Of a stretch of DNA of 38,919 nt, positions 9,957-28,771 are shown in pieces. The DNA is from Rhizobium sp. Q54 (GTDB taxonomy: Bacteria; Pseudomonadota; Alphaproteobacteria; UBA828): the NCBI GenBank assembly GCA_945892755.1, contig CAMDDO010000024.1, positions 1 through 38,919 of the forward strand. The letters are read 5' to 3'. The notes under the pieces are model-generated. The model had not been told where the DNA came from. It made no database searches and saw nothing but the letters and a program-made list of their open reading frames with translations. Position numbers and translations under genes: made by a program. Every line of letters begins with the position of its first letter. The stretch's first letter is position 1.

Positions 9957-12900
9957 TCAGTGAAAATCGCGCGATTTCGGCAAATAGCGGCCACCGGCTT
10001 CGCGCGGATCAGCCTGGCTCGCGCGGCGCGCCTCGTCGGCGCGCGCGAGCGGCGGCGCGGCCTTGGGCCCGAGCGCGCCCAAGCCATCGAGCTCGGCCGA
10101 TAAATCATAGAGCCGCTCGGCCACGACATGGATCACCAATCCCTCGCGCTGCACGCGCCCATGGCAGGCCAAGAGCCGCGAGGTCAGCACGATGCGGCGA
10201 TGGCGCTCGAACACCTTCGACCAGATCACCAGATTGGCGATGCCGGTTTCGTCTTCGAGCGTGGCGAAGATCACGCCCTTCGCCGTGCCCGGCCGCTGAC
10301 GCACCAGCACGAGCCCGGCGACCTTGACGCGCCGCTCCGCCGGCAATGTGCCAAGCGCCGCGCAAGGGACGACGCCACGGCGCGCGAGCGAGGGACGCAG
10401 CAACGCCAATGGGTGCGCGCGCAGGCTGAGCCGCAGGCTCGCATAATCGTCGATGATCTCTTCGCCAAGCGTCGCTGCCGGCAGCGTGATTTCAGGTTCG
10501 GCGGAAGCGGGATGTTGGCCTTCGCTTGATGCAGAAAATCGCGAGTCTTCGCGAGACCCCCCACCCTGTCCCTCCCCCTCAAGGGGGGAGGGAGCCATGG
10601 CAAACAACGGCAGCGCCTTTTCATCAGGCAGCGCGCGCACGGACCAGAAGGCGTCGCGCCGGCCAAGCGAGAGCGAGCGATAGGCATCGGCGCGCGCCAG
10701 GGCTTCGAGCGTCGCGCGCGTCACGCCCGCGCGGGTCTGCACATCATCGATGCGGCGATAGCCCGCGCCGCGCGCCGCGACCACGCGCATCGCCTCGGCC
10801 TCGGCCAGACCCTTGATCTCGCGCAGGCCGAGCCGAAGCACAACGCTGTTCGCTGTATCGGGAGAGCCATCGACCTTCCTTATTTCGTCATGGCCAGGCT
10901 TGACCCGGGCATGACGAGAGTTGGTGTCGAGCACACCACCTTTCGTCATGCCCCGCGAAGGCGGGGCATCCAGAACAGTGGCCCCATCGGTCCACGCCTC
11001 CCGCTGGATCCCCCGGTCAAGCCGAGGGATGACGATTTGGGGGGTGGCCGAAATGGTGTGTTCCGATTGGGCCGCCATCGCTTCCAGCGTGCAATCCCAC
11101 TCGCTTGCATTGACATCGACATCGCGCACCACGACGCCGTGTTCTTTCGCGTCGCGCACGATCTGCGCCGGCGCATAGAAGCCCATGGGCTGGCTGTTCA
11201 ACAGCGCCGTCGCGAACACCGCCGGGTAATGGCATTTGAGCCAGGCCGAAACATAGGCCAGCAGCGCGAAGCTCGCCGCGTGCGATTCCGGAAAACCATA
11301 TTCGCCGAAGCCCTCGATCTGGCTGAAGCAGCGCTCGGCGAAATCGCGCTGGTAATCGCGCGCCACCATGCCCTCGATCATCTTTTCGCGAAAACCATGG
11401 ATCTTGCCGGTCTTACGGAAGGTCGCCATGGCGCGGCGTAGCTGATCGGCCTCCTCGGGCGTAAAACCGGCGGCGACGATCGAGATCTTCATCGCCTGCT
11501 CCTGGAACAGCGGCACGCCGAGCGTCTTGCCGAGCACGGCCTCGAGCTCTTTTGACGGAAACTCAACCTTCTCCTCGCCATTCCGCCGGCGCAAATAGGG
11601 ATGCACCATGTCGCCCTGGATCGGGCCGGGACGCACGATCGCGACCTCGATGACGAGATCGTAAAACGTCCTGGGTTTGAGACGCGGCAGCATCGACATC
11701 TGCGCCCGGCTCTCGACCTGGAACACGCCGACCGTGTCGGCCCGGCTCAACATCTCATAGACCTTGGGGTCCTCGGCCGGCACATCGGCAAGGCCGAGAG
11801 CAAGACCGTGGTGCTGCCTCAACAGTGCGAGACCCTTCCTGATACAAGTCAACATGCCGAGGCCAAGCACATCGATTTTAAGAATACCGAGCGCATCGAG
11901 ATCGTCCTTGTCCCACTCGATATTGGTGCGCTCTTCCATCGCCGCGTTCATGATCGGCACCATCTCGGCGAGCGGCCCCTTGGTGATGACAAAACCGCCG
12001 ACATGCTGGGAGAGATGGCGCGGGAAACCGATCAGCTCGCGCGCCAGCGCCAGCGCCATCGAAAGCCGTGCCTCGGATGGATCGAGGCCGATCTCGCGCA
12101 CCTGCGCATCGCTCGCGCCCTCGCGACTGAAGCCCCAGAGCTGGCTTGAGAGCGCGCCAACCATGTCGGCTGAGAGGCCGAGCGCCTTGCCGACCTCGCG
12201 GATCGCGCTTCGTCCGCGATAGGAGATCACGGTGGCCGCGATGCCGGCGCGCTCGCGGCCATATTTCGCGTAGATATATTGGATCACCTCCTCGCGTCGC
12301 TCATGCTCGAAATCGACGTCGATATCGGGCGGCTCGTTGCGCGCGGCCGAGATGAAGCGCTCGAACAAAAGATCCATGCGCGCCGGATCGATCGCGGTGA
12401 TGCCAAGGCAATAACACACCGTCGAATTCGCGGCCGAACCACGGCCTTGGCACAAAATGTCGCGCCCGCGTGCGAAGCACACGATGTCGTACACGGTCAG
12501 AAAATAGGGCGCGTAATTGAGCCGTCCGATCAGCCCGAGCTCATGCGCGATCTGTGCCCTAACCTTTTCCGGAATACCCTCGGGATAACGCGCTCTCGCC
12601 CCTTCCAAGGTTAGGCGCTCAAGCTCCTGCTGCGGCGTGCGGCCCTCGGGCACCGGCTCGACCGGATAGTCATAACGCAATTCATCCAGGCTGAACCGAC
12701 AGGCGCCCGCGATCTTGATGCCCCGCGCGATGGCCTCGGGGTGGCGGCGGAATAGCCGCGCCATTTCATCCGGCGCCTTCAAATGCCGCTCGGCATTGGC
12801 GAACAGGCGAAAGCCCGCTTCGTCGATCGTGCAGTGCTCGCGGATGCAGGTGAGCACGTCCTGCAGCGGCCGGCGCGCGGCATCGTGCGCGTGCACGTCA

Positions 12901-13472
12901 TTGCTGGCGAGGAGCGGCGCGTTAAGCGCCTCGCCGAGCCGGGCCAGCATGGCAAGCCGCTTGGCGTCATCGCCGCGATAGAGATGGCTGCCGGCGAGAT
13001 GAACGCGCCCCAGCGCGGATTTGACCAGTGCCCCCACCCGCGCCGTGAAATCTTGCCCCGGTTCCTCCGGCGGCAATGCGATCAATTGCTGGCCTTCGGC
13101 GTGGCCTATCAGATCATCGAGGCCGAGCCAACATTCGGCCTTCGGCGCGCGCCGCTTGCCGAGCGTCAAGAGCCGCGACAAACGACCATAGGCCGCGCGG
13201 TCTTGCGGAAATACCAGCACGCCGAAAGCCGAACCCGCTTGCGGCTTGCTTGCATCGTCGAACAAATCGAGCCGCGCGCCGATAACCAGTTTCAATTTCG
13301 CCTGTTTCGCCGCGCCATGCGCGCGCACCACGCCGGCCAGCGTGTCGCGATCGGTGATCCCGAGCGCTTCATAACCAAGCGCCGCCGCCCGGTGCACCAG
13401 TTCCTCGGGATGCGAAGCGCCGCGCAGGAAACTGAAATTGCTCGTGACGGCAAGCTCGGCATAGCGGGTCAT
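9957..13472 (-). CDS. dnaE2: error-prone DNA polymerase DnaE2 (ImuC)
   Basis: This C-family polymerase works with ImuA and ImuB in SOS-induced translesion synthesis. The N-terminal PHP domain begins ELAVTSNFSFLRGASHPEE. The palm-domain catalytic aspartates are in PDIDVDF (D383, D385, D387), and LGILKIDVLGLGML and the OB-fold region (VKVAGLVLVRQRPGTAKG) follow. I place the start at 13472, where ATG shares its first base with the imuB stop (TGATG), implying translational coupling; the frame open to 13637 lies inside imuB. The product is 1171 residues, longer than typical DnaE2 (about 1050-1100). The excess is explained by two in-frame repeat insertions: residues about 813-862 (10886-11034) and a segment around 10520-10600. 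No polymerase motif is broken, so the gene is probably functional. Confidence 0.95.
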   Translation of the reverse strand: MTRYAELAVTSNFSFLRGASHPEELVHRAAALGYEALGITDRDTLAGVVRAHGAAKQAKLKLVIGARLDLFDDASKPQAGSAFGVLVFPQDRAAYGRLSRLLTLGKRRAPKAECWLGLDDLIGHAEGQQLIALPPEEPGQDFTARVGALVKSALGRVHLAGSHLYRGDDAKRLAMLARLGEALNAPLLASNDVHAHDAARRPLQDVLTCIREHCTIDEAGFRLFANAERHLKAPDEMARLFRRHPEAIARGIKIAGACRFSLDELRYDYPVEPVPEGRTPQQELERLTLEGARARYPEGIPEKVRAQIAHELGLIGRLNYAPYFLTVYDIVCFARGRDILCQGRGSAANSTVCYCLGITAIDPARMDLLFERFISAARNEPPDIDVDFEHERREEVIQYIYAKYGRERAGIAATVISYRGRSAIREVGKALGLSADMVGALSSQLWGFSREGASDAQVREIGLDPSEARLSMALALARELIGFPRHLSQHVGGFVITKGPLAEMVPIMNAAMEERTNIEWDKDDLDALGILKIDVLGLGMLTCIRKGLALLRQHHGLALGLADVPAEDPKVYEMLSRADTVGVFQVESRAQMSMLPRLKPRTFYDLVIEVAIVRPGPIQGDMVHPYLRRRNGEEKVEFPSKELEAVLGKTLGVPLFQEQAMKISIVAAGFTPEEADQLRRAMATFRKTGKIHGFREKMIEGMVARDYQRDFAERCFSQIEGFGEYGFPESHAASFALLAYVSAWLKCHYPAVFATALLNSQPMGFYAPAQIVRDAKEHGVVVRDVDVNASEWDCTLEAMAAQSEHTISATPQIVIPRLDRGIQREAWTDGATVLDAPPSRGMTKGGVLDTNSRHARVKPGHDEIRKVDGSPDTANSVVLRLGLREIKGLAEAEAMRVVAARGAGYRRIDDVQTRAGVTRATLEALARADAYRSLSLGRRDAFWSVRALPDEKALPLFAMAPSPLEGEGQGGGSREDSRFSASSEGQHPASAEPEITLPAATLGEEIIDDYASLRLSLRAHPLALLRPSLARRGVVPCAALGTLPAERRVKVAGLVLVRQRPGTAKGVIFATLEDETGIANLVIWSKVFERHRRIVLTSRLLACHGRVQREGLVIHVVAERLYDLSAELDGLGALGPKAAPPLARADEARRASQADPREAGGRYLPKSRDFH
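10570..10592. repeat. short palindromic repeat inside dnaE2
   Basis: CCCTCCCCC (10570-10578), loop TCAAG, GGGGGAGGG (10584-10592) form a perfect 9-bp-arm hairpin. Read in the dnaE2 frame it encodes SPLEGEGQGGG, a peptide typical of translated dispersed repeats, within a low-complexity stretch (about 10520-10600) that interrupts the conserved DnaE2 alignment before LPAATLGEEIIDDY. Confidence 0.75.
10886..11034. repeat. compound palindromic repeat inserted in frame in dnaE2
   Basis: Two units are adjacent. Unit one at 10886-10916 has arms CGTCATG and CATGACG. Unit two at 10944-11034 runs from CGTCATG through GCCCCGCgaagGCGGGGC-like pairing, then CATCCAG, a spacer, CTGGATC, CCCCGGTCAAGCCGAGGG and ATGACG, the same architecture as the intergenic copy at 6170-6259. 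In the dnaE2 frame it reads IVIPRLDRGIQ and RHARVKPGHDE, peptides that mark this repeat family when translated. No stop codon or frameshift is introduced. Confidence 0.88.
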
Positions 13473-15025
13473 CAGCCCGACAATCCATGCATGAACCAGG
13501 CGGGCGACGAACCGGGGCGAAAGGCGCCGAGGCGAAACAGCCAGAAGCGCCGGCCCGTCTCGTCCTCGACGCGGTAATAGTCGCGAAAGCGGCTCTCGCC
13601 TGAATCCGCCGCATCGATGCCGGCCGCGCGCCACCATTCGGGCGACAGGCGCTCCGGGCCGGTGGCCGCGCGTATTCGATGCACGGCGCGACGCCAGCGA
13701 AACATCACCGGCGGATCGTCGGGGATCGGCGCGATCACCTCGATCGGCTCAGGCCTCGGCAGTAGACGCAACGGCCGCTCACGCATCGCATGCGCCGACC
13801 AATCAGCGCTCGGTTCAAGCGCGCCGGCCGAGATCACCGCGCGCTCCGGCAAATGACTCTGGCGCGGCGCCGGTCGGTTGACGCTCTCCGGTCCCAGCCG
13901 ATTGCCGAGCCGGTCGATCAATTGTCCGAGCGCGGCTTCGTCCTCGGCCGCATCGGCACGACGCGGCCCCGCGTCATCGAAATCGAGGCCGAGTTGCACG
14001 CGCGGCAATTTGTCGGTCAACGGTGCGGCAAGCGTGATCGCATCAACGCCGAAGCCAATATCGAGGTCGGCCAATTTCTCGACCACGAGGCGCATCAAAT
14101 GGCGCGGCTCGCGTACCGCGAGACTGGTGCCAACCATGCGCTCATCGACCGCGCCATCGACCTTGAACAGCATCAATTCGAGCCGGCGCACACCGCGCCC
14201 ATCGGCCTCGAGCCTGATGGCGAGCGCTTCGAGCAGCGCGCGCGTCGTGGCATGAACTGCCTCCAGGCTCGCGACCGGTTCGGCGAACAGGCGCTCGACC
14301 CGATAGGGCGCGATGGCACGCGCGGGCGACAAGGGCTCATGCGCCACACCGAGCGCCTGATCGAGCCGGCGTCCCAGCGTCGTGCCGAAGCGCCGCGCCA
14401 AGGCGCCACGCGGCAAGCGATAGAGGTCTCCGATGCATCGCAAGCCGACGCGATCGAGCGCCTCGATTTCGGCCGTGCCAAGACGCAGCGCCGCGATCGG
14501 CAATGAGGCCAGGCGCGCGCGTGTTTCACCGACCGATACCACGCCGCCATTTCCATAACGCGCCAGCGCCCAGGCCGCGCCCGGCGTATCGGCCAGCGCC
14601 GCCTTGGCCGCGAAACCGAACAAAGCAAGCCGGCGCAAAAGATCATCGAGCAGCGCCGTCTCACCACCGCACAGCGCGGCGCAACCGGTCACATCGAGCC
14701 AAAGCCCGGCGCCGAAGCCCGCGCGGTCGAGCGCGACCCAGGGCGTATAGCGGCTGCACCAGGTCGCGAGCGCCTCAAGCGCCGCCGCCTCGGCCGCCAG
14801 CTCGCTCGGCTCAACGCCGAGCCGGGGCTCGATCGCGCGCGCGTCGCTCAGCGTCTGGCCAGGCCGCACGCCGGCCGTCTCGGCGGCGCCGTTGAGCGCC
14901 ACCACGCAAAGCCCGCGCGTATCACCGGCGACGACCGCCAGCGGTTCAGCCCGCCAAGCGGGTCTGAGCCGGCTCAGCCGATCGGTCGGGAAGCGCGGCA
15001 GCCAGAGCGAAACCACCCGTCTCAT
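13472..15025 (-). CDS. imuB: ImuB, Y-family polymerase-like SOS mutagenesis factor
   Basis: ImuB is a catalytically inactive DinB-like adaptor linking DnaE2 and ImuA to the beta clamp. The N-terminus MRRVVSLWLPRFPTDRL replaces the acidic first metal motif of active Y-family polymerases, and the usual SIDE motif reads LDVTGCAAL, both as in ImuB. QLGLDF at residues 344-349 fits the clamp-binding consensus Q-x-x-L-x-F. The C-terminal tail (ETGRRFWLFRLGAF) is typical of ImuB. I chose the ATG at 15025 (517 residues), preceded by GGAG at seven bases; the frame open to 15148 lies inside imuA. It overlaps imuA by 80 bases and shares one base with dnaE2, so the three are translated as one coupled SOS operon. 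Confidence 0.93.
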   Translation of the reverse strand: MRRVVSLWLPRFPTDRLSRLRPAWRAEPLAVVAGDTRGLCVVALNGAAETAGVRPGQTLSDARAIEPRLGVEPSELAAEAAALEALATWCSRYTPWVALDRAGFGAGLWLDVTGCAALCGGETALLDDLLRRLALFGFAAKAALADTPGAAWALARYGNGGVVSVGETRARLASLPIAALRLGTAEIEALDRVGLRCIGDLYRLPRGALARRFGTTLGRRLDQALGVAHEPLSPARAIAPYRVERLFAEPVASLEAVHATTRALLEALAIRLEADGRGVRRLELMLFKVDGAVDERMVGTSLAVREPRHLMRLVVEKLADLDIGFGVDAITLAAPLTDKLPRVQLGLDFDDAGPRRADAAEDEAALGQLIDRLGNRLGPESVNRPAPRQSHLPERAVISAGALEPSADWSAHAMRERPLRLLPRPEPIEVIAPIPDDPPVMFRWRRAVHRIRAATGPERLSPEWWRAAGIDAADSGESRFRDYYRVEDETGRRFWLFRLGAFRPGSSPAWFMHGLSG

Positions 15026-16933: not shown

Positions 16934-17245
16934 ATGTCAGAGCCCAACCCCAAGAACAAGCGGCCGGCCGACCAGCGAGTCGCCGTCGCGCTCAGCTATG
17001 ACCAGGGCAAGGACCCCGCGCCGCGCATCGCCGCGAGCGGCCGGGGCCCGGTCGCCGAGCGCATCATCGCGCTTGCGGCGGAGCACGGCATCCCGGTTCG
17101 GGAGGACGCCGACCTCGCCGCGCTCTTGGGCCAGCTCGACCTCGACAGCCTGATTCCGACCGAGGCGTTCGTCGCGGTCGCCGAAATCCTCTCCTACATC
17201 TACCGCCAGAACGGCCGGCTCAAGCAACAACAGGCCATGCCATGA
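16934..17245 (+). CDS. FlhB C-terminal-domain homologue (FlhX / EscU-YscU family)
   Basis: The 103-residue protein matches only the cytoplasmic export-switch domain of FlhB: VAVALSYDQGKDPAPRIAASG, then VAERIIALAAEHGIPVREDADLAALL, then LDSLIPTEAFVAVAEILSYIYR. It has no membrane segments and no NPTH autocleavage site, so it resembles FlhX, which in some bacteria can stand in for the cleaved FlhB tail at the export gate. It is the first gene of a rightward set, with a four-base ATGA overlap to the next gene, and probably under the CtrA box at 16841. Full-length flhB is not in this window. Confidence 0.85.
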   Translation: MSEPNPKNKRPADQRVAVALSYDQGKDPAPRIAASGRGPVAERIIALAAEHGIPVREDADLAALLGQLDLDSLIPTEAFVAVAEILSYIYRQNGRLKQQQAMP

Positions 17246-18809: not shown

Positions 18810-18934
18810 GCGGTGCCGGCGCGTCGGCCTGGCGAACCGATTTTAAGGCTGCGATTTCATCGCCTCCGGCAGGGGATTGGTGACGCTCTGGTTTCGGCCA
18901 AGCGCGCGCGACAGGCCGAGGCTTGCGCCGGAAT

Positions 18935-18953
18935 GTATATTACCGTAATATAC
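18935..18953. promoter_or_regulatory. palindromic operator of brnTA
   Basis: GTATATTAC-C-GTAATATAC is a perfect 19-base palindrome, A/T-rich in a GC-rich region, ending five bases before the brnT ATG. BrnA-type ribbon-helix-helix antitoxins bind palindromes in their own promoters, so this is the likely autoregulatory site. Confidence 0.75.
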
Positions 18954-18958
18954 AGACC

Positions 18959-19261
18959 ATGCTTGTTCTCGACCGTGTCGTGGGGTTCGAGTGGGACATT
19001 GGGAATGCCCGCAAGAATACGTCCAAGCACGGTGTGAGCCAAACCGAAGCGGAGCAGATGTTCTTCAATGAACCACTGCTGGTGAACCGCGATCTGAAGC
19101 ACAGCGATCTCGAGTCCCGCTTCCACGCGCTGGGAAGGAGCGACGCCGGTCGGCTGCTACACGCCACCTTCACGCTCCGGCGGGACGGCACGCTGATCCG
19201 AGTGATTTCGGCGCGGGACATGAGCCGTAAGGAGAAGCATCGCTATGACCAGGAAATCTAA
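18959..19261 (+). CDS. brnT: BrnT family toxin
   Basis: BrnT is a RelE-like ribonuclease toxin. The 100-residue product has the family layout: FEWDIGNARKNTSKHGVSQTEAEQMF at the N-terminus, a beta core including LLHATFTLRRDGTLIRVISARDMS, and RKEKHRYDQEI at the end, where the conserved R-V-I-S-A-R segment and following basic residues form the active region. I chose the ATG at 18959, just after the operator palindrome; an earlier start at 18923 would place coding sequence across the operator. It overlaps brnA by 17 bases. The pair sits in a variable gap between fliP and the motor operon and is likely a later arrival. Confidence 0.9.
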   Translation: MLVLDRVVGFEWDIGNARKNTSKHGVSQTEAEQMFFNEPLLVNRDLKHSDLESRFHALGRSDAGRLLHATFTLRRDGTLIRVISARDMSRKEKHRYDQEI

Positions 19262-19505
19262 ACAGCCTCCCAAATTCGTGAGCGAGGCGGCGGAGCGTCG
19301 CTATTGGGAAAGCCATGACTCGAGCGATCAGGTCGATTGGAGCAAAGCCGAGCGGGTCCGCCTGCCCAATCTGAAACCCTCAACCACCGCGATCTCCTTG
19401 CGCCTTCCGGTCAGCCTGCTCGAGCGCATCAAGATCGCGGCAAACAAACGCGACGTGCCGTACCAGTCCCTGATCAAAACATGGCTTGCCGAGAAGCTCA
19501 ACTAA
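19245..19505 (+). CDS. brnA: BrnA family antitoxin (ribbon-helix-helix)
   Basis: This 86-residue antitoxin pairs with BrnT. The N-terminal part (KFVSEAAERRYWESHDSSDQVDWSKAERV) is the toxin-binding region seen in this antitoxin group, and the C-terminal ISLRLPVSLLERIKIAANKRDVPYQSLIKTWLAEKL is a CopG-like ribbon-helix-helix DNA-binding domain. Toxin before antitoxin with overlapping frames is the usual BrnTA order. The dimer should bind the palindrome at 18935 and repress the operon. Confidence 0.9.
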   Translation: MTRKSKQPPKFVSEAAERRYWESHDSSDQVDWSKAERVRLPNLKPSTTAISLRLPVSLLERIKIAANKRDVPYQSLIKTWLAEKLN

Positions 19506-19819: not shown

Positions 19820-22800
19820 CTATTTCGTTGCGGTCTTGGCCTTGCCGGTTAGGGCGTCGATGCCATCGAGATTGGCGAGGATCTTCGGCAGCTCTTTCAT
19901 GTCGACGCCATCTTCGGCCATCGAACTGGTCAGGAATTCGAACGCGCCGGCGTGCTCGGTTTTCTTCAGCGCGTCGGCGAAGCGCGCGCGCATCGCGCCG
20001 AGCCCTTCGGTGTCGTGGGCGAGCGCACGGGCGACCGCGGCCCGCATGATGCGCGCATGGTCCTCTGGCTTGAGCGCGCCGGCATCGGTCGCGCCGGCCG
20101 GGTACATTTGATCGACGCTCGCGGCTACCGCCTGCCAATTCTGATCGTCCCACTGAAGCTCGATGCGTATCAGCGCGGCCTCCTTGCCGGTATCGCTCGC
20201 GATCAGCGCGAGGCCCTGCTTGGGTCGGCCGAGCGCGGCTTCGGCGCGCGCCGCGACGCGCTGGCGTTCCTGAACCAGGGGCGTCGCCAATTTCGCACTC
20301 TCGGTCGCTTTCAGCGTCGCGATCGCATCTTCCGCCTTGCCATCGAGCAGTTTCACCTCGGCGAGCCGGCCGCCGAGGCGCGCCTTGTCCTCGCCCTCGA
20401 GCTTGCCAATCTGCTTTTCGAGCAGCGCGGCGGCACGATCGAGCAAGTCGATCGCGATCAGCTTGTTGGCGAGACCTTCGACGATGCGGCCTCCCTCGGC
20501 GCCACTCGGCGCGCTGTCTTCAAACTCGTAATAGAGCCCGAGCGCCTCGAGCGGGGTCATGGCCTCGGCATCGCCCGAAACGAACAGGCTGTGCATCAGC
20601 GTGAACATCTGATCGCGCAATTGCGGCGTGCCGGGCGCGTCGGGAAACAGTTCGACCGCGTCCCTGAGCGCGGTGAGCGCGTTCATGTAGTCCTTCTTGC
20701 CGGCATAGAGCGCGGCGAGGCGGCGCAGCAATTGCCGCTCATAGGCGTCGCCGCGCCAGGCCGTGCGCAGCCGCTCCAGCTCATGGATCGCCTGCTCGGG
20801 CTCGATCGCGCCGCGCTCGAGCTTGAGCTCGATGGCAGCGAAGGCGGCACGCACGCCAACCGGGCCCTCGCGTTTCTCGCCGAGCTTTTCATAGTCTTCG
20901 ATGGCGGCCTTCTGATGCCCGCTGTGCTCCGCAACCTGGGCTTCGAGATAGCCGATCTCGGCGACCTCCGACGGTTTGATCGGCCCGTCGCTGTTCTTCA
21001 GATCGTTGAGGAATTTGGCGGCGCGCTGAAAATTCTTGAGCGCCAAGGCGGACTGCGTGGCGAGCAGGCCGAAGCGGCGTTTGAAATCGGGCGTCAGGCT
21101 TTCATAGGCGATCGCGGCGGCGCTGAACGCAGCGTCGGCGGCCGCGAAATCGCCGCTGCTCGCGGCCAGCGCGCCGCGCCAGAGCGTGGCGTCGGCGTCG
21201 CCATCGAGCGCCTGGTTGTCGAGGTCGCGCGCCGCTTCTTCGAAGTGACCGGCAAGCAACCGGGTCGCGCCGCGCAGCGCCAGAAAGGCGGGCTCGCGCG
21301 TGGCCGCTTCATCCTCGGCGGCGACGCGCTCCAACACGCCGAGCGCATCCGCCGCATGACCGTGCACGAACAATAGCCGCGCCAGTTCGAGCCGATGCCC
21401 GGTGCGCGCCCCGCCGGTTGCATCCGCGGCCGCGACCTGCAGGGCCTGACGCGCCTTGTTGAAGCTGCCCAAATCCTCGCGCCGCCAGGTCTTGTAGTCG
21501 AACAGCTTCGAGGCATCCTCCATCGGCAGGTCGTCGGAGGCCGCGACGTCGGTGCGGTCCGCTTCGGCCGCGACCGGCTCGGGCGAAAGCACCAGCGCCT
21601 CGCCGTCGGTGATCTCGATGCCGCTGGCGACGGCGCCGACCTTGAGCGCGTCGCCAAGCGGCGCGATCGCGATGCCCTGAGCGCTTGGCAGCAGCTTGAA
21701 CTGGACGAAGCTGCGCGCTTCGGCCACGCCGGAGCCCGGCGTCGTGCTGGTTATCGCGATCAACCTGTCGCCGACTTCGGGGTCGGTCAGCGTGATCGTC
21801 GATCCCGCGCCGGTGACCAGCAGGGTGACGCGTCCGCCATTGCCGCTCGAGCCGGGCTCGGCCCGCACCGTGATGGCGTACAGCGGCCGCGGCGGCTCCG
21901 CCATCAGCTCGACGAACCAGGTATTGCCGGCGCGCACGGCTTGCGCGCCGATCTCGGGCGCGAGCGCGAGCCTGAGCACGCTCGCCGTCTCGCTCTCGAG
22001 CGTCTCGGCGCCGACGAAGGCACGCCCAAGCGGCCCCGCCGCATCGAGCCCTGAAAGGTCGAGCGCGTGCTTGGTATCGAACACGATCCAGAGAAAGCCA
22101 AGGCGCTCGAACACCGCGGCGCCGGTTTCGCGGTCGAACGGAAAGCCGAGCCGCACGCCGGCACCGATCGCGTCGGCGCTGACCCGGAGCGAAGCGGGAC
22201 CCGCCGGCATAAAGGTGGCGCCGCTGGTCGCGCCGTGCGGCGCCGAGGCGCCCCCAAGGCCGATCATGAGCGCGCCATTCGGTTCGGAAGGCGCAACCGC
22301 TGGCGGGCCGGGCGAGGTCTCCGGTGCCGGGACTGTCGCCTCCGCCGCGACCGGCGCTTTCGCTTCAAGCTTGGCGGCTTCGAGGTTCGGCATTGCGATC
22401 TCGGCCGTCTGAGCGGGCGGTGCCGAGGCATGAGGCTGCGCGACCGGTAGCGGCAGGACCTCGGCGGACTGAGGCGTGGCGGGAATTTCAAGCGAGGGTA
22501 TCGGCTTGGCGCCCTCGGTGACCACCGGCCGCGCTGGCACCGGCACCGGCACGGTCGCCATCTTGGCGCCGGCCGGGGCACTCGGTCTCGCTGGCTTCGG
22601 CTCCGGCGCAGCGGGTGCGACCCTTGTCACGGCGACCGCGTCTTGTTTGGCCCAGTCCGGGCGCGTGACGCGATCTCCGGCCGTCTCATCCATGAGGTCG
22701 AGCACGATCCGATTGCCGCGCTGGAAGTGGCGCAGCTTGGTGCCGGCCGCCACGGCGGCGATGCGCACCACCGTGACGTCGCCCTCGACCTTGACATCGA

Positions 22801-23635
22801 CGGCGCGGTAATGGCTCGGCTTCGTGGTCGGTTTGGCCATCGGCTCGATCAGCGCGGGCGAATTGAACCGCACGACAAGGTCATTGCCCGCGCGCTCGAC
22901 CTTGTAATCGACCAGGCGATCCCAATCGAACACCACGCGGCTGAAGCCGCCGAGCTCGCGCGGCACGATCGAGAGAAACGGTTGACTGCTTCGGTCGGCG
23001 GATTGCGACGGGAGCGGCGTCGCAGCGTCCGCTTGCGCCGGGCTTGCCGCCGGAAGCGACGCCGGTGTCGGTGCCGTTGCGCGCAGCGCCGACGGCTCCA
23101 GCGCGGCCGGCGCGGCGGCGCCCGCCGCCGGCGCGATCGCCGCGAGCGCCCGGGCGTCGCTGTTCGCCACGACCACCGGTGAACCGGACGCGACGCGCGG
23201 ACTCGCCGTGCGCGCGCTTGGCGCGGGCGGCGCCGGGGGGATGATCGTCGGGTACGCCTCTGGCGGCGAATCAAACAGATCGACGACGAGCAGCCTGCCA
23301 AAACGAAGCAGGCGAAGCTCTACCGGCTTGGTCAGGCTGAGCGCGATGGTCCGCGAGTCCGTCATCAATGTCGCGCCGTTCACCAAGCCGGGCAGGCGTT
23401 TCGGAATCACCGCAAGCGCGCCGGTGAACGGCCGGTCGAAGGTGATCTTGACTTCGTTCCCACCCGCCGTCGCGTTGAACGCGACCGGACTTGACCATTC
23501 GAACGCGATGCGCGCGAAATCGTCATGGTAGCCGGCGCGTACCTCGATCGGGGTTTCATCGGCGCAAGGTGCGGGCGCGGCAAGCAAGACGGTGACGGAG
23601 AACAGAACAGCGGCGCCAAAAACCCTACGCCGCAT
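19820..23635 (-). CDS. large secreted beta-module/TPR protein of the flagellar motor operon
   Basis: The function of this 1271-residue protein is not known. A signal peptide (about residues 1-25, ending AAPAPCA) sends it to the periplasm. Three related beta modules follow at about 30-125, 220-330 and 478-700; the first two share F-x-R-x-x-F-x-W and G-N-x-x-x-V-x-F-x-x-P and resemble AMIN-type modules, which in other proteins bind peptidoglycan. They are separated by long Pro/Ala-rich linkers (about 130-215 and 335-470). From about residue 710 the rest is helical tetratricopeptide-like repeats (for example ARLLFVHGHAADALGVLERV, AAKFLNDLKNSDG). The gene overlaps the OmpA-like gene by 11 bases and ends the fliL-to-cheZ transcript, so a role in anchoring or assembling the motor in the cell wall is plausible. 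A general envelope scaffold is the alternative. Confidence 0.85.
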   Translation of the reverse strand: MRRRVFGAAVLFSVTVLLAAPAPCADETPIEVRAGYHDDFARIAFEWSSPVAFNATAGGNEVKITFDRPFTGALAVIPKRLPGLVNGATLMTDSRTIALSLTKPVELRLLRFGRLLVVDLFDSPPEAYPTIIPPAPPAPSARTASPRVASGSPVVVANSDARALAAIAPAAGAAAPAALEPSALRATAPTPASLPAASPAQADAATPLPSQSADRSSQPFLSIVPRELGGFSRVVFDWDRLVDYKVERAGNDLVVRFNSPALIEPMAKPTTKPSHYRAVDVKVEGDVTVVRIAAVAAGTKLRHFQRGNRIVLDLMDETAGDRVTRPDWAKQDAVAVTRVAPAAPEPKPARPSAPAGAKMATVPVPVPARPVVTEGAKPIPSLEIPATPQSAEVLPLPVAQPHASAPPAQTAEIAMPNLEAAKLEAKAPVAAEATVPAPETSPGPPAVAPSEPNGALMIGLGGASAPHGATSGATFMPAGPASLRVSADAIGAGVRLGFPFDRETGAAVFERLGFLWIVFDTKHALDLSGLDAAGPLGRAFVGAETLESETASVLRLALAPEIGAQAVRAGNTWFVELMAEPPRPLYAITVRAEPGSSGNGGRVTLLVTGAGSTITLTDPEVGDRLIAITSTTPGSGVAEARSFVQFKLLPSAQGIAIAPLGDALKVGAVASGIEITDGEALVLSPEPVAAEADRTDVAASDDLPMEDASKLFDYKTWRREDLGSFNKARQALQVAAADATGGARTGHRLELARLLFVHGHAADALGVLERVAAEDEAATREPAFLALRGATRLLAGHFEEAARDLDNQALDGDADATLWRGALAASSGDFAAADAAFSAAAIAYESLTPDFKRRFGLLATQSALALKNFQRAAKFLNDLKNSDGPIKPSEVAEIGYLEAQVAEHSGHQKAAIEDYEKLGEKREGPVGVRAAFAAIELKLERGAIEPEQAIHELERLRTAWRGDAYERQLLRRLAALYAGKKDYMNALTALRDAVELFPDAPGTPQLRDQMFTLMHSLFVSGDAEAMTPLEALGLYYEFEDSAPSGAEGGRIVEGLANKLIAIDLLDRAAALLEKQIGKLEGEDKARLGGRLAEVKLLDGKAEDAIATLKATESAKLATPLVQERQRVAARAEAALGRPKQGLALIASDTGKEAALIRIELQWDDQNWQAVAASVDQMYPAGATDAGALKPEDHARIMRAAVARALAHDTEGLGAMRARFADALKKTEHAGAFEFLTSSMAEDGVDMKELPKILANLDGIDALTGKAKTATK

Positions 23636-24326
23636 CGTCGACCTCTTGGCTGGTTCGGCGGATCACGATTTCGATCCCCGGCGGCTCGATTCGCTCGGGC
23701 AAAACAGGCGCCGTGTTCGATGCGTCGCGCGGCAAGGGCGCGCCGAGTGAATTGATCGGCTGCTTGTAGCCCGCGCCGCGCAGCGTCTCCAACACGGCGC
23801 GCGCGCGGCGAGCAGACAAGCGAAGCGATGCCGGCCCGGCCCGTTCGTCGACGTCCGCCGCCGATCGCGGACCATCGTCATAGCCGATCACATCGATGCG
23901 CCAGGCGCCGGTTTCGAGCGCAATCGCCAGCCGCTCGAGCAAGCGGCGCGCGCCGACGCTCGGCGTCGACGTGTCGTTCGAGAACGCGCGCGCGCGCGAC
24001 AATGAGATGACCCATTGATCCGCCCGCCGGCGCAACAGGGGTCGAAGCGTGCCGTCGGCGGTGCTGATGATTCGGCTGAGCGCCCCGTTCAAGGCCTCGC
24101 CGCCACGCGCGAGCGACCGCGCCGCGCCGCGCCATCGCACGACGCGTCGCCGTGCGTGGTCGAGCAATGAAAGCCCGGCACCGGCGGTCAACGCCACCAG
24201 GACATAGAAAGGAGTCGCCACGAGCGTGGTGCCCCAAAGCACGAAGCCGCCGAGCCGGCTCAAGCGGCCAAGGCGACCGCGATGGAGCCCGGGAGTCGCC
24301 GAGAAATGACGTGACGCAGCAGTCAT
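23625..24326 (-). CDS. inner-membrane protein with OmpA-like C-terminal domain
   Basis: The 233-residue protein has an N-terminal basic segment, a long hydrophobic stretch at about 26-55 (GGFVLWGTTLVATPFYVLVALTAGAGLSLL cut by one Pro), a linker, and a C-terminal domain like OmpA/MotB: ALETGAWRIDVIGYDDG, then SLRLSARRARAVLETLRGAGY and a GAPLP end. The Asp of the DDG turn and the LSxxRA arginines are kept, but the usual Asn before LS is replaced, so peptidoglycan binding is likely but not certain. The ATG at 24326 was chosen; the longer frame to 24524 is arginine-rich noise reaching into cheZ. It follows cheZ by 52 bases and overlaps the TPR gene by 11. It is not motB: it lacks the MotB plug and Asp-containing TM helix. 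Confidence 0.75.
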   Translation of the reverse strand: MTAASRHFSATPGLHRGRLGRLSRLGGFVLWGTTLVATPFYVLVALTAGAGLSLLDHARRRVVRWRGAARSLARGGEALNGALSRIISTADGTLRPLLRRRADQWVISLSRARAFSNDTSTPSVGARRLLERLAIALETGAWRIDVIGYDDGPRSAADVDERAGPASLRLSARRARAVLETLRGAGYKQPINSLGAPLPRDASNTAPVLPERIEPPGIEIVIRRTSQEVDDAA

Positions 24327-24378: not shown

Positions 24379-25026
24379 TTACATGCTGGCGAGAAGCGCG
24401 TCGATCTCGGCCTGGCTCGCGCCTTGGCCGGCGACTTGAGGTCCGTTGAGCAAGGCCGCGTCGGGACGCGCATCGTTGAGCTTATGCATCTTGGCCGTGC
24501 TGACCGATTTGCGCAGCTTGTCACCGAACACGGAGACGATCTTGTCGAGCTCGACCTCGATATGCTTGAGCGCGTTCACCACTTTGGTGACGCGCTGTCC
24601 GGTCAAATCCTGAAAGCCGCTGGCCTCATAGATTCGCGTCACCACGTCGGTGATGGCCTTGCCATGTTCGGGCGTGGCATTGGCGGTCAGGCCCTCGAGC
24701 GTTTCGGCGCAATCGAGAATGGTGCTGGTCGCGGCTTCCGTGCCTTTGACGATCGCATCCAGTTCGTCGGTGGCGCGATCGATGAAGTCGCTTCGGATCT
24801 GCTCGGGATGAATCTCCGCGATCTCGGTCTTGGCCGAGCGGATGTACTTGGCCAGATCGTCGAGTTCGCGATAGAGGCTGATTTCGCCCGACGTCACGTC
24901 GCCGTGAAGCGTGTCGAGTAGGCTAGAGACAACGTCGCCGATCTCATTGACTGAAATTTGGTCACCGCGTGCGATCTTGATTTCATCAAGTCTGGCCTGA
25001 AAGGCCGACGTATGGCTCGCATTCAT
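24379..25026 (-). CDS. cheZ: protein phosphatase CheZ
   Basis: CheZ dephosphorylates CheY-P to reset the flagellar switch. The 215-residue helical protein carries the catalytic motif FQDLTGQRVTKVV, where the glutamine of LTGQ is the catalytic residue, and ends in a linker and QAEIDALLASM, the CheY-docking peptide. The ATG at 25026 has GGGAG nine bases upstream; a TTG at 25044 opens the frame earlier but is less likely. It lies 46 bases after cheY on the same strand. The C-terminal E-I-D-x-L-L also occurs in FliM in this operon. Confidence 0.92.
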   Translation of the reverse strand: MNASHTSAFQARLDEIKIARGDQISVNEIGDVVSSLLDTLHGDVTSGEISLYRELDDLAKYIRSAKTEIAEIHPEQIRSDFIDRATDELDAIVKGTEAATSTILDCAETLEGLTANATPEHGKAITDVVTRIYEASGFQDLTGQRVTKVVNALKHIEVELDKIVSVFGDKLRKSVSTAKMHKLNDARPDAALLNGPQVAGQGASQAEIDALLASM

Positions 25027-25072: not shown

Positions 25073-25459
25073 TCAGAACGGTCCGAGCACGGCCTGTAGT
25101 TTGCCCTTGAGCGTTTCGGCGTTGAACGGCTTCACAATGTAGTTGTTGACGCCGGCCGCCTTGGCCGCGACGACGTTTTCGGTCTTGCTTTCCGCGGTCA
25201 CCAAAATGAATGGCACGGCCTTGAGCTTGTCGTCGGCGCGAACCTGCTTCAGAAGTTCGAGCCCCGAAACCGGCTCCATGTTCCAGTCAGAAATCACCAA
25301 GCCGAAACTTCCGGCGCGCAGCTTGCCCAACGCCTCGCCGCCATCCGCGGCGTCGTCGACATTCTTGAAGCCGAGCTGCTTCAACAGGTTGCCGATTATT
25401 CTGACCATCGTCTTGTAGTCGTCGACGACGAGAACGTTCATGTTTAAATCGACAGCCAT
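25073..25459 (-). CDS. cheY: chemotaxis response regulator CheY
   Basis: This is a 128-residue single receiver domain. The acidic pair is in VLVVDDYKTM, the phosphoacceptor Asp in LVISDWNM, the switch Thr in ILVTAES, the switch aromatic in NNYIVKPF and the conserved Lys in KPF. No output domain is present, so it acts by binding FliM. The ATG at 25459 with GGGAG about ten bases upstream is preferred; an ATG at 25441 is also possible. It is followed by cheZ and preceded by a possible CtrA site at 25536. This receiver is closely tied to the switch operon rather than to a cheA-cheW cluster, which is not in the window. Confidence 0.95.
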   Translation of the reverse strand: MAVDLNMNVLVVDDYKTMVRIIGNLLKQLGFKNVDDAADGGEALGKLRAGSFGLVISDWNMEPVSGLELLKQVRADDKLKAVPFILVTAESKTENVVAAKAAGVNNYIVKPFNAETLKGKLQAVLGPF

Positions 25460-25562: not shown

Positions 25563-26489
25563 TCAGGAATTTTCGTCGGGTTTGTTTTCGTCGGGTTTGT
25601 GTGGTCGGCGGCGCGCCATGAGCTCCTCGGTTATGGTCTTGGCGCGCGAAGGGTCGAGCAGCGCCAAGATCGACGCGCTTTTCGATTCTTTCATTCGTTC
25701 GATCACGTCGAGCAGGATGTCCGATTCAAGATCGCCGAGAATGGCCGCAGCTTCCCGAGGCTTCATACTCTCGTAGATCTTGACCAGACTGCCGACGCGC
25801 TCGTCCTCCTGCTTGCTCTGTTGCGCAAGCAAGCCCTCGACGGTCACCTTCAGCGTCTCGAGCGCCTTGATCTTGGCATCCAATTTTTGCTCGGCGGCCG
25901 CGAGCGTCTGTTCCTTCAGCGCGAATTCGCGCTCGCGGGCTTCGAGCGCCGCGCGCCGCTTGGAGAGCCCTTGGAGCAGTTCGATCTCGGCGCGGCTCAG
26001 CATCATCGGGTCGAAATTCTCATCGTCCAGTCCGAGCCTCGCGCCCGTGTCGTCAGCTTCCTCGGCGCCAGTGCCGGCCTCATCGGGCTGATCGTTTTCT
26101 GTCGTCTTGTGCTCGCCCTTGGCGTCGGCCTTGTCGTCGGCGCCATGTTTCGCGGGCGTCTTCTTGCCTGGCGCGGCATCGGCCTTCGCGGCGACCTTGG
26201 CTGATTCATCGTCCTCGGACTCGGTGTCAGCTGCTTTTTTCGACGTCGCCTTTGGTTTTTCCTTTTCCGGTGTGTCGGTTTTTTCCGCTGTGTCCGCTTC
26301 TGGCGCACCTTCTTCAGGCTTTCCGGCCGCCGGAACAATCGCCCCCAGATCGGCATGCTGCCGTGCCTCAGTCGATGCCTCGGCGGGTGTACCAAAGTCG
26401 ACCAAAAGCGCCCCCAACTTGCCGGCGAGGAGCAGGCCGGCTCCGATAAGGATGGCCGGTAATATTTTGAATTTAAAAGGTAAATTCAT
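25563..26489 (-). CDS. MotE-like flagellar protein (MgtE N-domain-like)
   Basis: The 308-residue membrane-anchored protein has an N-terminal TM helix (about residues 10-30, LPAILIGAGLLLAGKLGALLV), then a very Lys/Glu/Asp/Ala-rich disordered segment (about 50-150), then a coiled coil (SRAEIELLQGLSKRRAALEAREREFALKEQ...), and a C-terminal MgtE-N/FliG-like helical domain (SLVKIYESMKPREAAAILGDLESDILLDVIERM). In MotE of rhizobia the corresponding protein stabilises the periplasmic MotC-MotB stator assembly; here the order and neighbours support a motor role. It lies 14 bases after the DUF6468 gene. The exact orthology to motE is unproven, so no symbol is given. Confidence 0.8.
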   Translation of the reverse strand: MNLPFKFKILPAILIGAGLLLAGKLGALLVDFGTPAEASTEARQHADLGAIVPAAGKPEEGAPEADTAEKTDTPEKEKPKATSKKAADTESEDDESAKVAAKADAAPGKKTPAKHGADDKADAKGEHKTTENDQPDEAGTGAEEADDTGARLGLDDENFDPMMLSRAEIELLQGLSKRRAALEAREREFALKEQTLAAAEQKLDAKIKALETLKVTVEGLLAQQSKQEDERVGSLVKIYESMKPREAAAILGDLESDILLDVIERMKESKSASILALLDPSRAKTITEELMARRRPHKPDENKPDENS

Positions 26490-26503: not shown

Positions 26504-26896
26504 TCAGCGAACCGCGCGCAGGGCGCTGAGGATTTCGCGCTCGAGCCGTTTGCGGCCATCACCACGAGGCGAGTCATCGATCACGTCGCTGCCGCCCTGG
26601 CCGCGCTCGACACCCTTGCCGGCACGCTCCATCCGGTAGGAGAGTTCTTCATTGAGCCGCCGTGCTTTTTCGATCGACGCTTGCAGGCCCGCGCCGACTT
26701 GCTCGGCGCCGGCCTTCAGGCCGGCAATGCCGGCTTCCGCATGGCCCGTGGCCTCGTTCAATGTAGCGATCAGGCCGCGAAGCTCGCTTTGATGCGCGCG
26801 CAATGAGGCGAGACGACGACTGAGCACGGCGCCATAGCCGATCGTGGCGCCGAGCAAAATGATGATCAGTACGTCTAGAATCAGACCGAATGCCAT
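26504..26896 (-). CDS. DUF6468 flagellar-locus protein
   Basis: This 130-residue protein has one N-terminal membrane helix (ILDVLIIILLGATIGYGAVL) followed by a long helical region (RRLASLRAHQSELRGLIATLNEATGHAEAGIAGLKAGAEQ...) and a basic C-terminal end (RKRLEREILSALRAVR). This matches DUF6468, which occurs between fliM and motE-like genes in many alphaproteobacteria; its role is unknown. It is four bases from fliM and 14 bases from the motE-like gene, clearly in the same transcript. Confidence 0.8.
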   Translation of the reverse strand: MAFGLILDVLIIILLGATIGYGAVLSRRLASLRAHQSELRGLIATLNEATGHAEAGIAGLKAGAEQVGAGLQASIEKARRLNEELSYRMERAGKGVERGQGGSDVIDDSPRGDGRKRLEREILSALRAVR

Positions 26897-26899
26897 CTG

Positions 26900-28015
26900 T
26901 CACTCCGAATCGTTCATCACCGGCTCCTTGACCCGAATGGCGACATTCGGGCCGACACGGCCCATCGAGCCAACCAAGAGCGGCACATCGCCACAACGCA
27001 ACTCGACATTCGATGACGGCTGGACGCCAAGCATCATGGTATCCCCAACGCGAAACGCGGCGAATTCGCCGAGCTCCATTGTCTGGACATCGAGCACGGC
27101 ATCGATTTGGACGTCGGTGCGCCACAGTTCCTGCGCCAGATGGGTTTCCCAGATCGCATCGCGACCGAATTTTTCGCCCATGAACATCTGGAGCAGCAGA
27201 TCGCGAACCGGCTCGAGAGTGGCATAGGGCAGGACGATTTCGATCTTGCCGCCGCGATCTTCCATATCGATGCGCAGGCGCACCAGGATCGCCGCGTTGG
27301 CCGGACGCGCAATGGTGGCGAAGCGCGGGTTGATCTCGAGCCGGTCGAACACGAAATGCACCGGGCTGAGCGGCTCGAACGCGGCGGAAATGTCGGCGAG
27401 AATGACGCCCAGCATGCGCTCGATCAGATTGCGCTCGATCGTCGTGTAGGGGCGGCCCTCGATGCGCATCGGCGCCGTGCCGCGGCGACCGCCCAACAAG
27501 ACATCGACGATCGAATAGATCAGCGCGCTGTCGATCGTCATCAGGCTGTAATTGTCCCACTCCTGAGCCTTGAAGACGCCCAGCATAGCCGGCAGAGGGA
27601 TCGAATTGAGATAGTCGCCGAACCGAATCGAGGTAATGTTATCGAGCGTAACTTCCACATTATCGGACGTGAAGTTGCGCAGGCTCGTGGTCATCAGGCG
27701 GACCAGCCGGTCGAAAATGACTTCGAGCATCGGCAGGCGCTCATAGGAGACCAGCGCGCTATTCAGGATCGCCTGAATCCCGGTCTTTTCCTGATCGCCG
27801 GCCGCGGCGTCGAAACCGAGCAGATTGTCGATTTCGTTCTGATTCAGGACGCGCGTCGCGGTCTCGGCGGTGGCGCCTTCGGCGCCGCCACCCGGATTGG
27901 CGGCGTCAGCCGGCGAGCCTTCGGCCTTGCCCTCTCCGCCCACCATGGCGGCCCATTCGGCCGCCATCTCATCGTCGGTTGCGGGCGTCTCTTGGTCTTT
28001 GCCTGGTTCAGCCAT
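26900..28015 (-). CDS. fliM: flagellar motor switch protein FliM
   Basis: FliM is the C-ring protein that receives CheY-P. The 371-residue sequence has an N-terminal extension with a conserved-looking DDEMAAEWAAMVGG helix at about 14-27, a flexible stretch, then the CheY-docking motif NQNEIDNLLGF at about 58-68. The middle domain follows (LEVIFDRLVRLMTTSLRNFTSDNVEV; VVDVLLGGRRGTAPMRIEGRPYTTIERNLIERML) and then the C-terminal FliN-like domain (VQTMELGEFAAFRVGDTMML). It starts three bases after the fliL stop, so the two are coupled. fliN and fliG are not in the window. Confidence 0.96.
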   Translation of the reverse strand: MAEPGKDQETPATDDEMAAEWAAMVGGEGKAEGSPADAANPGGGAEGATAETATRVLNQNEIDNLLGFDAAAGDQEKTGIQAILNSALVSYERLPMLEVIFDRLVRLMTTSLRNFTSDNVEVTLDNITSIRFGDYLNSIPLPAMLGVFKAQEWDNYSLMTIDSALIYSIVDVLLGGRRGTAPMRIEGRPYTTIERNLIERMLGVILADISAAFEPLSPVHFVFDRLEINPRFATIARPANAAILVRLRIDMEDRGGKIEIVLPYATLEPVRDLLLQMFMGEKFGRDAIWETHLAQELWRTDVQIDAVLDVQTMELGEFAAFRVGDTMMLGVQPSSNVELRCGDVPLLVGSMGRVGPNVAIRVKEPVMNDSE

Positions 28016-28018
28016 GGT

Positions 28019-28582
28019 CTATTGGATCAACATCTCGCGAAACAACACGTCTTTGACTTCATGCGGCTCGATCGCCCCGTTGATGCGGGCTAGCAGTTCT
28101 TCCTTCAGGCGGTAAACGCCGGCCGAGCCGCTGATGTCCTCCGAGCGGAGCTCGCGCAAATAGACCTGGAAGCGGTCGACGATGCGCGGCTTGACCTTTT
28201 CGATCTCCGGCAGGACCAGCGGGTCGTCAAACTCCAGGCTCACCGAGAGTTTTAGGTAGCTCGGCTGCTTGCCGGACGAACGCAGATTGACCAGCATGTC
28301 GGGCAGCTCGAAATAGACGGCCTCCTTCGGCACCTCTTCCTCGACGTGCTCGGCGGCTTCCTCACCGCCGCCCAGCACCATGTCGAGCACGCCGAACTGG
28401 TAGGCGCCGCCGAGCAGAAGAACCGGCAGCCCGATGAAGATAGCAAGCTTCTTCGGGGTAAATTTTCGGCGCTTTTTCGGTGCGCCGCCTTCACCCGACG
28501 CGGCATCGGCGGGGGCGGCCTCTTCGGCCTCCGCCTCCGCCTCGACCTCGGTCGCCTTTTTTTTTGCCGCCGCCTTAGCCAT
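28019..28582 (-). CDS. fliL: flagellar basal body-associated protein FliL
   Basis: FliL is an inner-membrane protein that surrounds the stator and raises torque. The 187-residue sequence has a cytoplasmic Lys/Glu/Ala-rich tail, a TM helix (KLAIFIGLPVLLLGGAYQFGVLDMVLG), an acidic periplasmic linker and the stomatin-like FliL domain (VYFELPDMLVNLRSSGKQPSYLKLSVSLEF...; the end ...EVKDVLFREMLIQ). The ATG at 28582 has GGAGG eight bases upstream; the TTG at 28588 was rejected. A run of nine A residues near the start encodes lysines and is a possible slippage site. It opens the leftward motor operon. Confidence 0.94.
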   Translation of the reverse strand: MAKAAAKKKATEVEAEAEAEEAAPADAASGEGGAPKKRRKFTPKKLAIFIGLPVLLLGGAYQFGVLDMVLGGGEEAAEHVEEEVPKEAVYFELPDMLVNLRSSGKQPSYLKLSVSLEFDDPLVLPEIEKVKPRIVDRFQVYLRELRSEDISGSAGVYRLKEELLARINGAIEPHEVKDVLFREMLIQ

Positions 28583-28771
28583 GAACAAAACCTCCGGCAG
28601 CTCTGGGTGCGCAACCCGGCGCCTGCGTCAAACGCACTATAGGAACGCGAAGGTTAACAAGCGGTTGCGACCGTCCGGATGGACACGGCTTGGCTCGGCA
28701 AAGCTTGCCGGCCTGTGCCGCCCAAGCAAGCCGGCCCGCCGTGCAAACCGCTAAAGCCTAGGTAATCCTTG

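Follow-up and report, generated by a model that had tools for sequence, protein, structure and literature searches.

A putative motor-spoke protein of the MotK/FssB/PflA group and its apparently MotB-derived neighbour in a flagellar gene cluster of Rhizobium sp. Q54

Two overlapping genes, here called X and Y, stand at the end of a flagellar switch and chemotaxis gene cluster in Rhizobium sp. Q54, and we consider it very probable that Y is an alphaproteobacterial motor spoke of the MotK/FssB/PflA group and that X is a non-conducting descendant of a MotB-like protein, most likely acting as a wall anchor. The cluster lies in the 38,919-nucleotide stretch of contig CAMDDO010000024.1 that was analysed here (the window), and its genes run on the minus strand in the order fliL-fliM-DUF6468-motE-cheY-cheZ-X-Y. 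The evidence comes from sequence profiles, gene order across the class, structure models and published work on relatives, and is laid out below together with the alternatives.

An open reading frame check placed X (233 aa) at 23625-24326 and Y (1271 aa) at 19820-23635, agreeing in coordinates, lengths and strand with an earlier note made from the letters of this DNA, and the 11-base overlap shared by the X stop and the Y start is present (ATGCGGCGTAG). Pfam likewise bore out the upstream gene order read in that note, with matches on the minus strand to FliL (28019-28588; 8.7e-21), FliM (26900-28015; 1.7e-65), a DUF6468 protein (26504-26896; 1.4e-19) that occupies the position of PflI (PMC10954123), MgtE_N/MotE (25563-26489; 1.2e-6), CheY (25073-25459) and CheZ (24379-25026; 6e-14). 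The fourth of these genes encodes a MotE/FlgY-type E-ring protein, the expected partner of Y, and gave a match of 1e-8 to the FlbB E-ring model. Like MotE, FlgY and FlbB it matches both MgtE_N and the FlbB collar model, but at 308 aa it is longer, its N-terminus is of membrane type and its linker is charged and of low complexity. A scan upstream of fliL for CtrA-type sites gave no match, and a scan for sigma-70 promoters found none.

Several features of the surrounding DNA were recorded in passing. Genes for a BrnT toxin (Pfam 2.2e-22) and a CopG-type antitoxin (1.3e-31) form a plus-strand insertion (18923-19505) that separates fliP from the end of Y; in related genomes fliP faces Y directly, without this insertion. 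Upstream of fliO-fliP, a 103-aa protein (16934-17245, plus strand) consists of the FlhB C-terminal domain only (Pfam 1.6e-19); its gene adjoins one for a 106-aa protein of unknown kind that relatives conserve. The error-prone polymerase gene dnaE2 (9957-13637) contains about 60 additional residues in frame (10859-11057, minus strand; VIPRLDRGIQ...SRHARVKPGHDEIRK). Partial copies of the inserted DNA recur at about 15 further sites of the genome, which suggests an interspersed repeat that has inserted into a coding sequence.

Y has the anatomy of an exported AMIN and TPR protein, and the main parts named in the earlier note (a signal peptide, three AMIN-like modules and TPR-like helices) could all be recognised. 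Its N-terminus carries a signal peptide of about residues 1-25 (23561-23635; MRRRVFGAAVLFSVTVLLAAPAPCA), the sole hydrophobic segment of the protein, with hydropathy windows starting at residues 4-8 and no further transmembrane segment, and a periplasmic location is therefore inferred from this signal-peptide-like stretch. AMIN module 1 (residues about 30-121; 23273-23548) and module 2 (about 220-316; 22688-22978) were identified by AlphaFold, by Foldseek matches to PilQ and AmiC and by Pfam matches in homologues, and AMIN-like module 3 (about 483-578; 21902-22189) by an order of strands and helices in the AlphaFold models that equals that of module 1. To these we add a fourth beta domain, absent from the earlier description and highly conserved (about 587-677; 21605-21877; AlphaFold and DPExGD...AQGIAI conservation). 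The remainder forms a TPR-like superhelix (about 714-1270; 19826-21496), seen as helices in the AlphaFold model and backed by Foldseek and by TPR matches in homologues. All of these features, like Y itself, are encoded on the minus strand.

Y on its own returned no useful domain from Pfam or NCBIfam, and its match to the Pfam AMIN-like family was weak (0.0093); the domains emerged from homologues and structure models. Among 44 Y homologues, 34 matched AMIN-like and 22 matched AMIN. An AlphaFold model of residues 24-340, made with 44 sequences, shows two beta-sandwiches, both modules lying mostly above a pLDDT of 90, and its best PDB matches in Foldseek were to PilQ of the type IVa pilus (3jc8, E 6.5e-5); the match to AmiC (4bin) reached E 2.3e-3 with an rmsd of 3.7 over 113 columns. 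AmiC is the founding AMIN structure. A second model, covering residues 480-1271 (pLDDT 81.8), contains module 3, the fourth beta domain and about 15 helical hairpins, and pLDDT is about 90 in the helical repeats. When it was compared by Foldseek with 350,542 chains, rank 1 went to chain K of 9HMF (E 2.6e-10; next entry 6.9e-8), the periplasmic scaffold of Campylobacter jejuni, in which chain K has 773 residues, a length that fits mature PflA. The global TM-score to this chain was only 0.24, low but not surprising for flexible superhelices. For the same part of Y, VIA-align ranked generic TPR proteins highest and had no PflA among the top 50, so the likeness of fold supports kinship with PflA but is no proof of it by itself.

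The earlier note had called the pair undescribed, and for Y this does not hold. Judged by its profile match to a Paroceanicella protein and by MotK-type gene order, Y belongs to an already recognised kind, the group of periplasmic spoke proteins formed by MotK, FssB (CC_2058) and PflA (PMC10954123, PMC7885107, PMC11870540, PMC13023049). In Paroceanicella (Paracoccaceae) the genes run fliL-pflI-motE-motA-Y', exactly as around MotK, and hhalign matches the 883-aa product of the gene in the MotK slot to the Y profile at 97.6%; hmmsearch gives 7.5e-17 in a very small search space. It is through this protein and the published gene order that Y is linked to MotK. Among further homologues, the Azospirillum protein reached 99.9% against the Y profile (E 5e-37), and Azospirillum and Sphingomonadales plasmid proteins together ranged from 99.9 to 100%. 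In Azospirillum ramasamyi the homologue of Y is encoded on a plasmid, not beside motE but directly before motA-motB, and this connects the family with the stator operon.

MotK of Cereibacter sphaeroides, a periplasmic protein of AMIN-TPR type whose gene follows fliL-pflI-motE-motA, binds both MotE and MotB2; rotation depends on it, and mutants make paralysed flagella (PMC10954123). It shares with Y Sec export, an N-terminal AMIN domain, a TPR-like C-terminus and a gene in the motE cluster, but has 652 aa, a single AMIN domain and motA as a neighbour; in Y there are three AMIN-like modules and a further, fourth beta domain, and the linkers are longer. The authors of the MotK study group Caulobacter CC_2058 with it. 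By published gene order Y is the counterpart of this protein, FssB, whose mutant in Caulobacter crescentus has filaments that do not rotate (PMC7885107); compared by description, FssB has the signal peptide, AMIN-like N-terminus and TPRs of Y and is likewise encoded after motE (CC_2059), but the papers describing it mention no adjoining X, cheY or cheZ. PflA of Campylobacter jejuni and Helicobacter pylori (788 aa) combines an AMIN-like beta-sandwich, a flexible linker and about 16 TPRs, and binds the FlgY E-ring. It gave the best PDB match for the C-terminal part of Y, yet a sequence match between the two was not found; PflA acts together with PflB, of which the analysis of the window gave no sign. 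MotE is itself a homologue of FlgY, which in Campylobacter forms the E-ring and binds the PflA spokes.

To follow the Y family through the class, we searched a profile built from the C-terminal parts of eight Y proteins against 289 alphaproteobacterial genomes, and FliM against the same set. Strong Y matches (stronger than about 1e-20) were found in 147 of the 167 FliM-positive genomes as against 6 among the roughly 122 that lack a FliM match (Fisher p 3e-51), and the remaining 20 FliM-positive genomes mean that Y is not universal. Where Y and fliM share a contig, 107 of 112 pairs lie within 10 kb of each other (median 5.5 kb). Gene order was examined in 68 loci, comprising 60 selected because Y and fliM share a contig and eight others, and in this mostly selected sample fliL, fliM and motE precede Y on the same strand in 61. 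Co-occurrence with fliM-motE had been proposed earlier as a check, and mainly non-flagellated hosts as grounds for giving up the motor hypothesis; Y instead tracks FliM and is nearly restricted to FliM-positive genomes. Conservation across a whole class further argues that Y is no chance reading frame. Flagella are patchy in the family of the window genome, FliM being matched in only 2 of its 21 genomes, and in one member (88% complete) X and Y are present and fliM went undetected. On Roseobacter plasmids with MotE (Marinovum, Salipiger, Sulfitobacter and Roseivivax), no Y-like annotation was found in the 6-7 kb around motE.

X is a small membrane protein with an OmpA-like C-terminal domain. 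Its one hydrophobic segment (residues about 27-55; 24162-24248, minus strand, as is the whole of X), identified by hydropathy, lacks the Asp of the MotB channel, and the MotB plug is lost as well; basic residues on both flanks of the segment make the topology ambiguous. The OmpA-like domain (23646-24026) had been claimed in the earlier note: profile comparison upholds it, and Pfam alone leaves it below threshold (E 0.036, 14.9 bits against a cut-off of 27.2). Within it, GYDD and LSARRA correspond in position to the OmpA-domain motifs GHxD and LSxxRA, whose Asp and Arg are expected to bind peptidoglycan. X would thus retain the two residues expected to contact the wall.

As to origin, X appears to be a divergent relative or descendant of a family that we call MotB-like-1. 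An hhalign query built only from X and its one close relative, with MotB-like sequences excluded, matched MotB-like-1 at 98.8% (E 5e-17) and MotB-like-2 at 91%, and the other OmpA proteins of the genome, its true MotB included, at under 1%. That true MotB is separate, on contig C51, and gives the only MotB_plug match in the genome. X also lies directly upstream of Y in the MotB-like-1 slot, the second of two tandem MotB-like slots, and a class-wide search with X alone gave five weak matches outside the window genome, four of them at the gene adjoining Y. X has the layout of MotB and the MotB-like proteins, a single membrane segment and then an OmpA-like domain containing the expected Asp and Arg, and occupies the MotB-like-1 gene slot; it differs from MotB in having neither plug nor channel Asp. 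In two genera its reading frame is unbroken, and the two proteins, 34% identical, have membrane-segment and OmpA motifs in common. In its family X was found in 2 of 21 genomes, the window genome and one relative, and a closely related flagellated genome has the cluster without X, cheY and cheZ, so X is dispensable there. The conserved X-Y pair envisaged in the earlier note therefore does not stand: X in this form turned up in just these two genomes, whereas most genomes have two MotB-like genes before Y.

Among the 68 loci, MotB-like-1 lies upstream of Y in 41 (immediately upstream in 40) and MotB-like-2 in 43; at the window locus MotB-like-2 is gone from beside X. In loci L022 and L065-L124, where the two genes were seen in tandem upstream of Y, they have no adjacent motA. 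MotB-like-1 of L022 matches MotB_plug (6e-15) and passes the OmpA cut-off. Wherever the membrane segment of MotB-like-1 could be seen in our listing it contains a channel-type Asp, which did not show in the copies of MotB-like-2 examined. We found no description of tandem MotB-like genes beside Y in the open-licence literature, a weak negative because coverage was restricted to that literature. Although speculative, it is possible that alphaproteobacterial motors often possess a dedicated MotB-like pair, encoded just ahead of the spoke protein and having no MotA of its own, that provides wall anchors or stator gates for the spoke assembly, and that in this lineage the pair collapsed to the non-conducting X. 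If so, X separates wall anchoring from proton flow.

For Rhizobium sp. Q54 we infer the mechanism, including how Y is oriented and what X does, from what is known in relatives. Y would be exported by Sec, and its C-terminal TPR superhelix would be directed towards the rotor axis and bind the MotE ring around the MS-ring, with the AMIN modules reaching out on flexible Pro/Ala linkers to peptidoglycan and to the stator/FliL zone or MotB. Through Y, MotAB stators might in this way be brought in, kept at the correct radius and opened there. X, in turn, may tether the spoke or stator assembly to the wall without conducting ions; because it keeps a membrane tether and an OmpA-like domain and has lost the channel Asp and plug, a wall anchor at spoke or stator is its most likely role. 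For fssA, a related stator-support gene of Caulobacter, suppressors map to MotA and to the MotB plug, which fits the holding open of stators. A 2020 tomogram reports, for the Caulobacter motor, an E-ring, a periplasmic ring of 13-fold symmetry and 11 stators, without a known scaffold, for part of which the Y family is a candidate. The earlier functional guess, of a scaffold around the motor or stator that is linked to the wall, was largely right, and agrees with all findings on Y: an exported AMIN-TPR protein, the motE neighbourhood and co-occurrence with FliM.

Other readings of Y have to be weighed against a motor spoke. AMIN and TPR modules are common in envelope proteins, and Y gave weak NCBIfam matches to PorW/SprE and BamD, so that one might see in it a general envelope scaffold or chaperone, related to Tol-Pal or secretion, that came to lie in a flagellar operon by chance; the near-exclusive co-occurrence with FliM, the fixed place beside motE across the class and the paralysis of MotK and CC_2058 mutants make this very improbable. 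We also think it unlikely that Y is a motility factor in the manner of Sinorhizobium MotC, with MotE as its chaperone, that opens MotB and is not a structural spoke. MotE was indeed first described as the MotC chaperone, and the binding of MotK to MotB2 and the fssA suppressors in MotA and the MotB plug would suit such a factor, but MotE co-localises with the flagellum even in the absence of MotK, PflA and FlgY are visible as structural elements in tomograms, and the opening of MotB is in any case compatible with a spoke.

For X, the loss of plug and channel Asp, the occurrence in two genomes only and the disappearance of its MotB-like-2 neighbour could point to a decaying remnant that has no function of its own and is kept for translational coupling of Y through the overlap. 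We find this doubtful, as the unbroken frame in two genera, with shared motifs in proteins that are 34% identical, suggests selection. That X and Y together form a cell-wall complex with no stator link, for example one that opens the wall for rod assembly, would agree with the wall-binding type of domain in both, but Pfam and NCBIfam revealed no catalytic domain in either protein and the relatives affect rotation with filament assembly unaffected, leaving this hardly credible.

With Y taken as a spoke of the MotK/FssB/PflA group and X as a probable wall anchor, a gene pair that had counted as unknown is now tied to the recently recognised system of E-ring and spokes. PflA-type proteins have been hard to identify by sequence in published surveys, and Y, nearly class-wide in alphaproteobacterial motors, can be detected with a sequence profile. 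The conserved tandem MotB-like genes beside Y are the most novel part of these findings, and X, as far as its sequence tells, would be a natural variant in which the channel residue was lost and a wall-binding type of domain retained. The roles of the Y family, the MotB-like proteins and X are directly testable in strains with good genetics.
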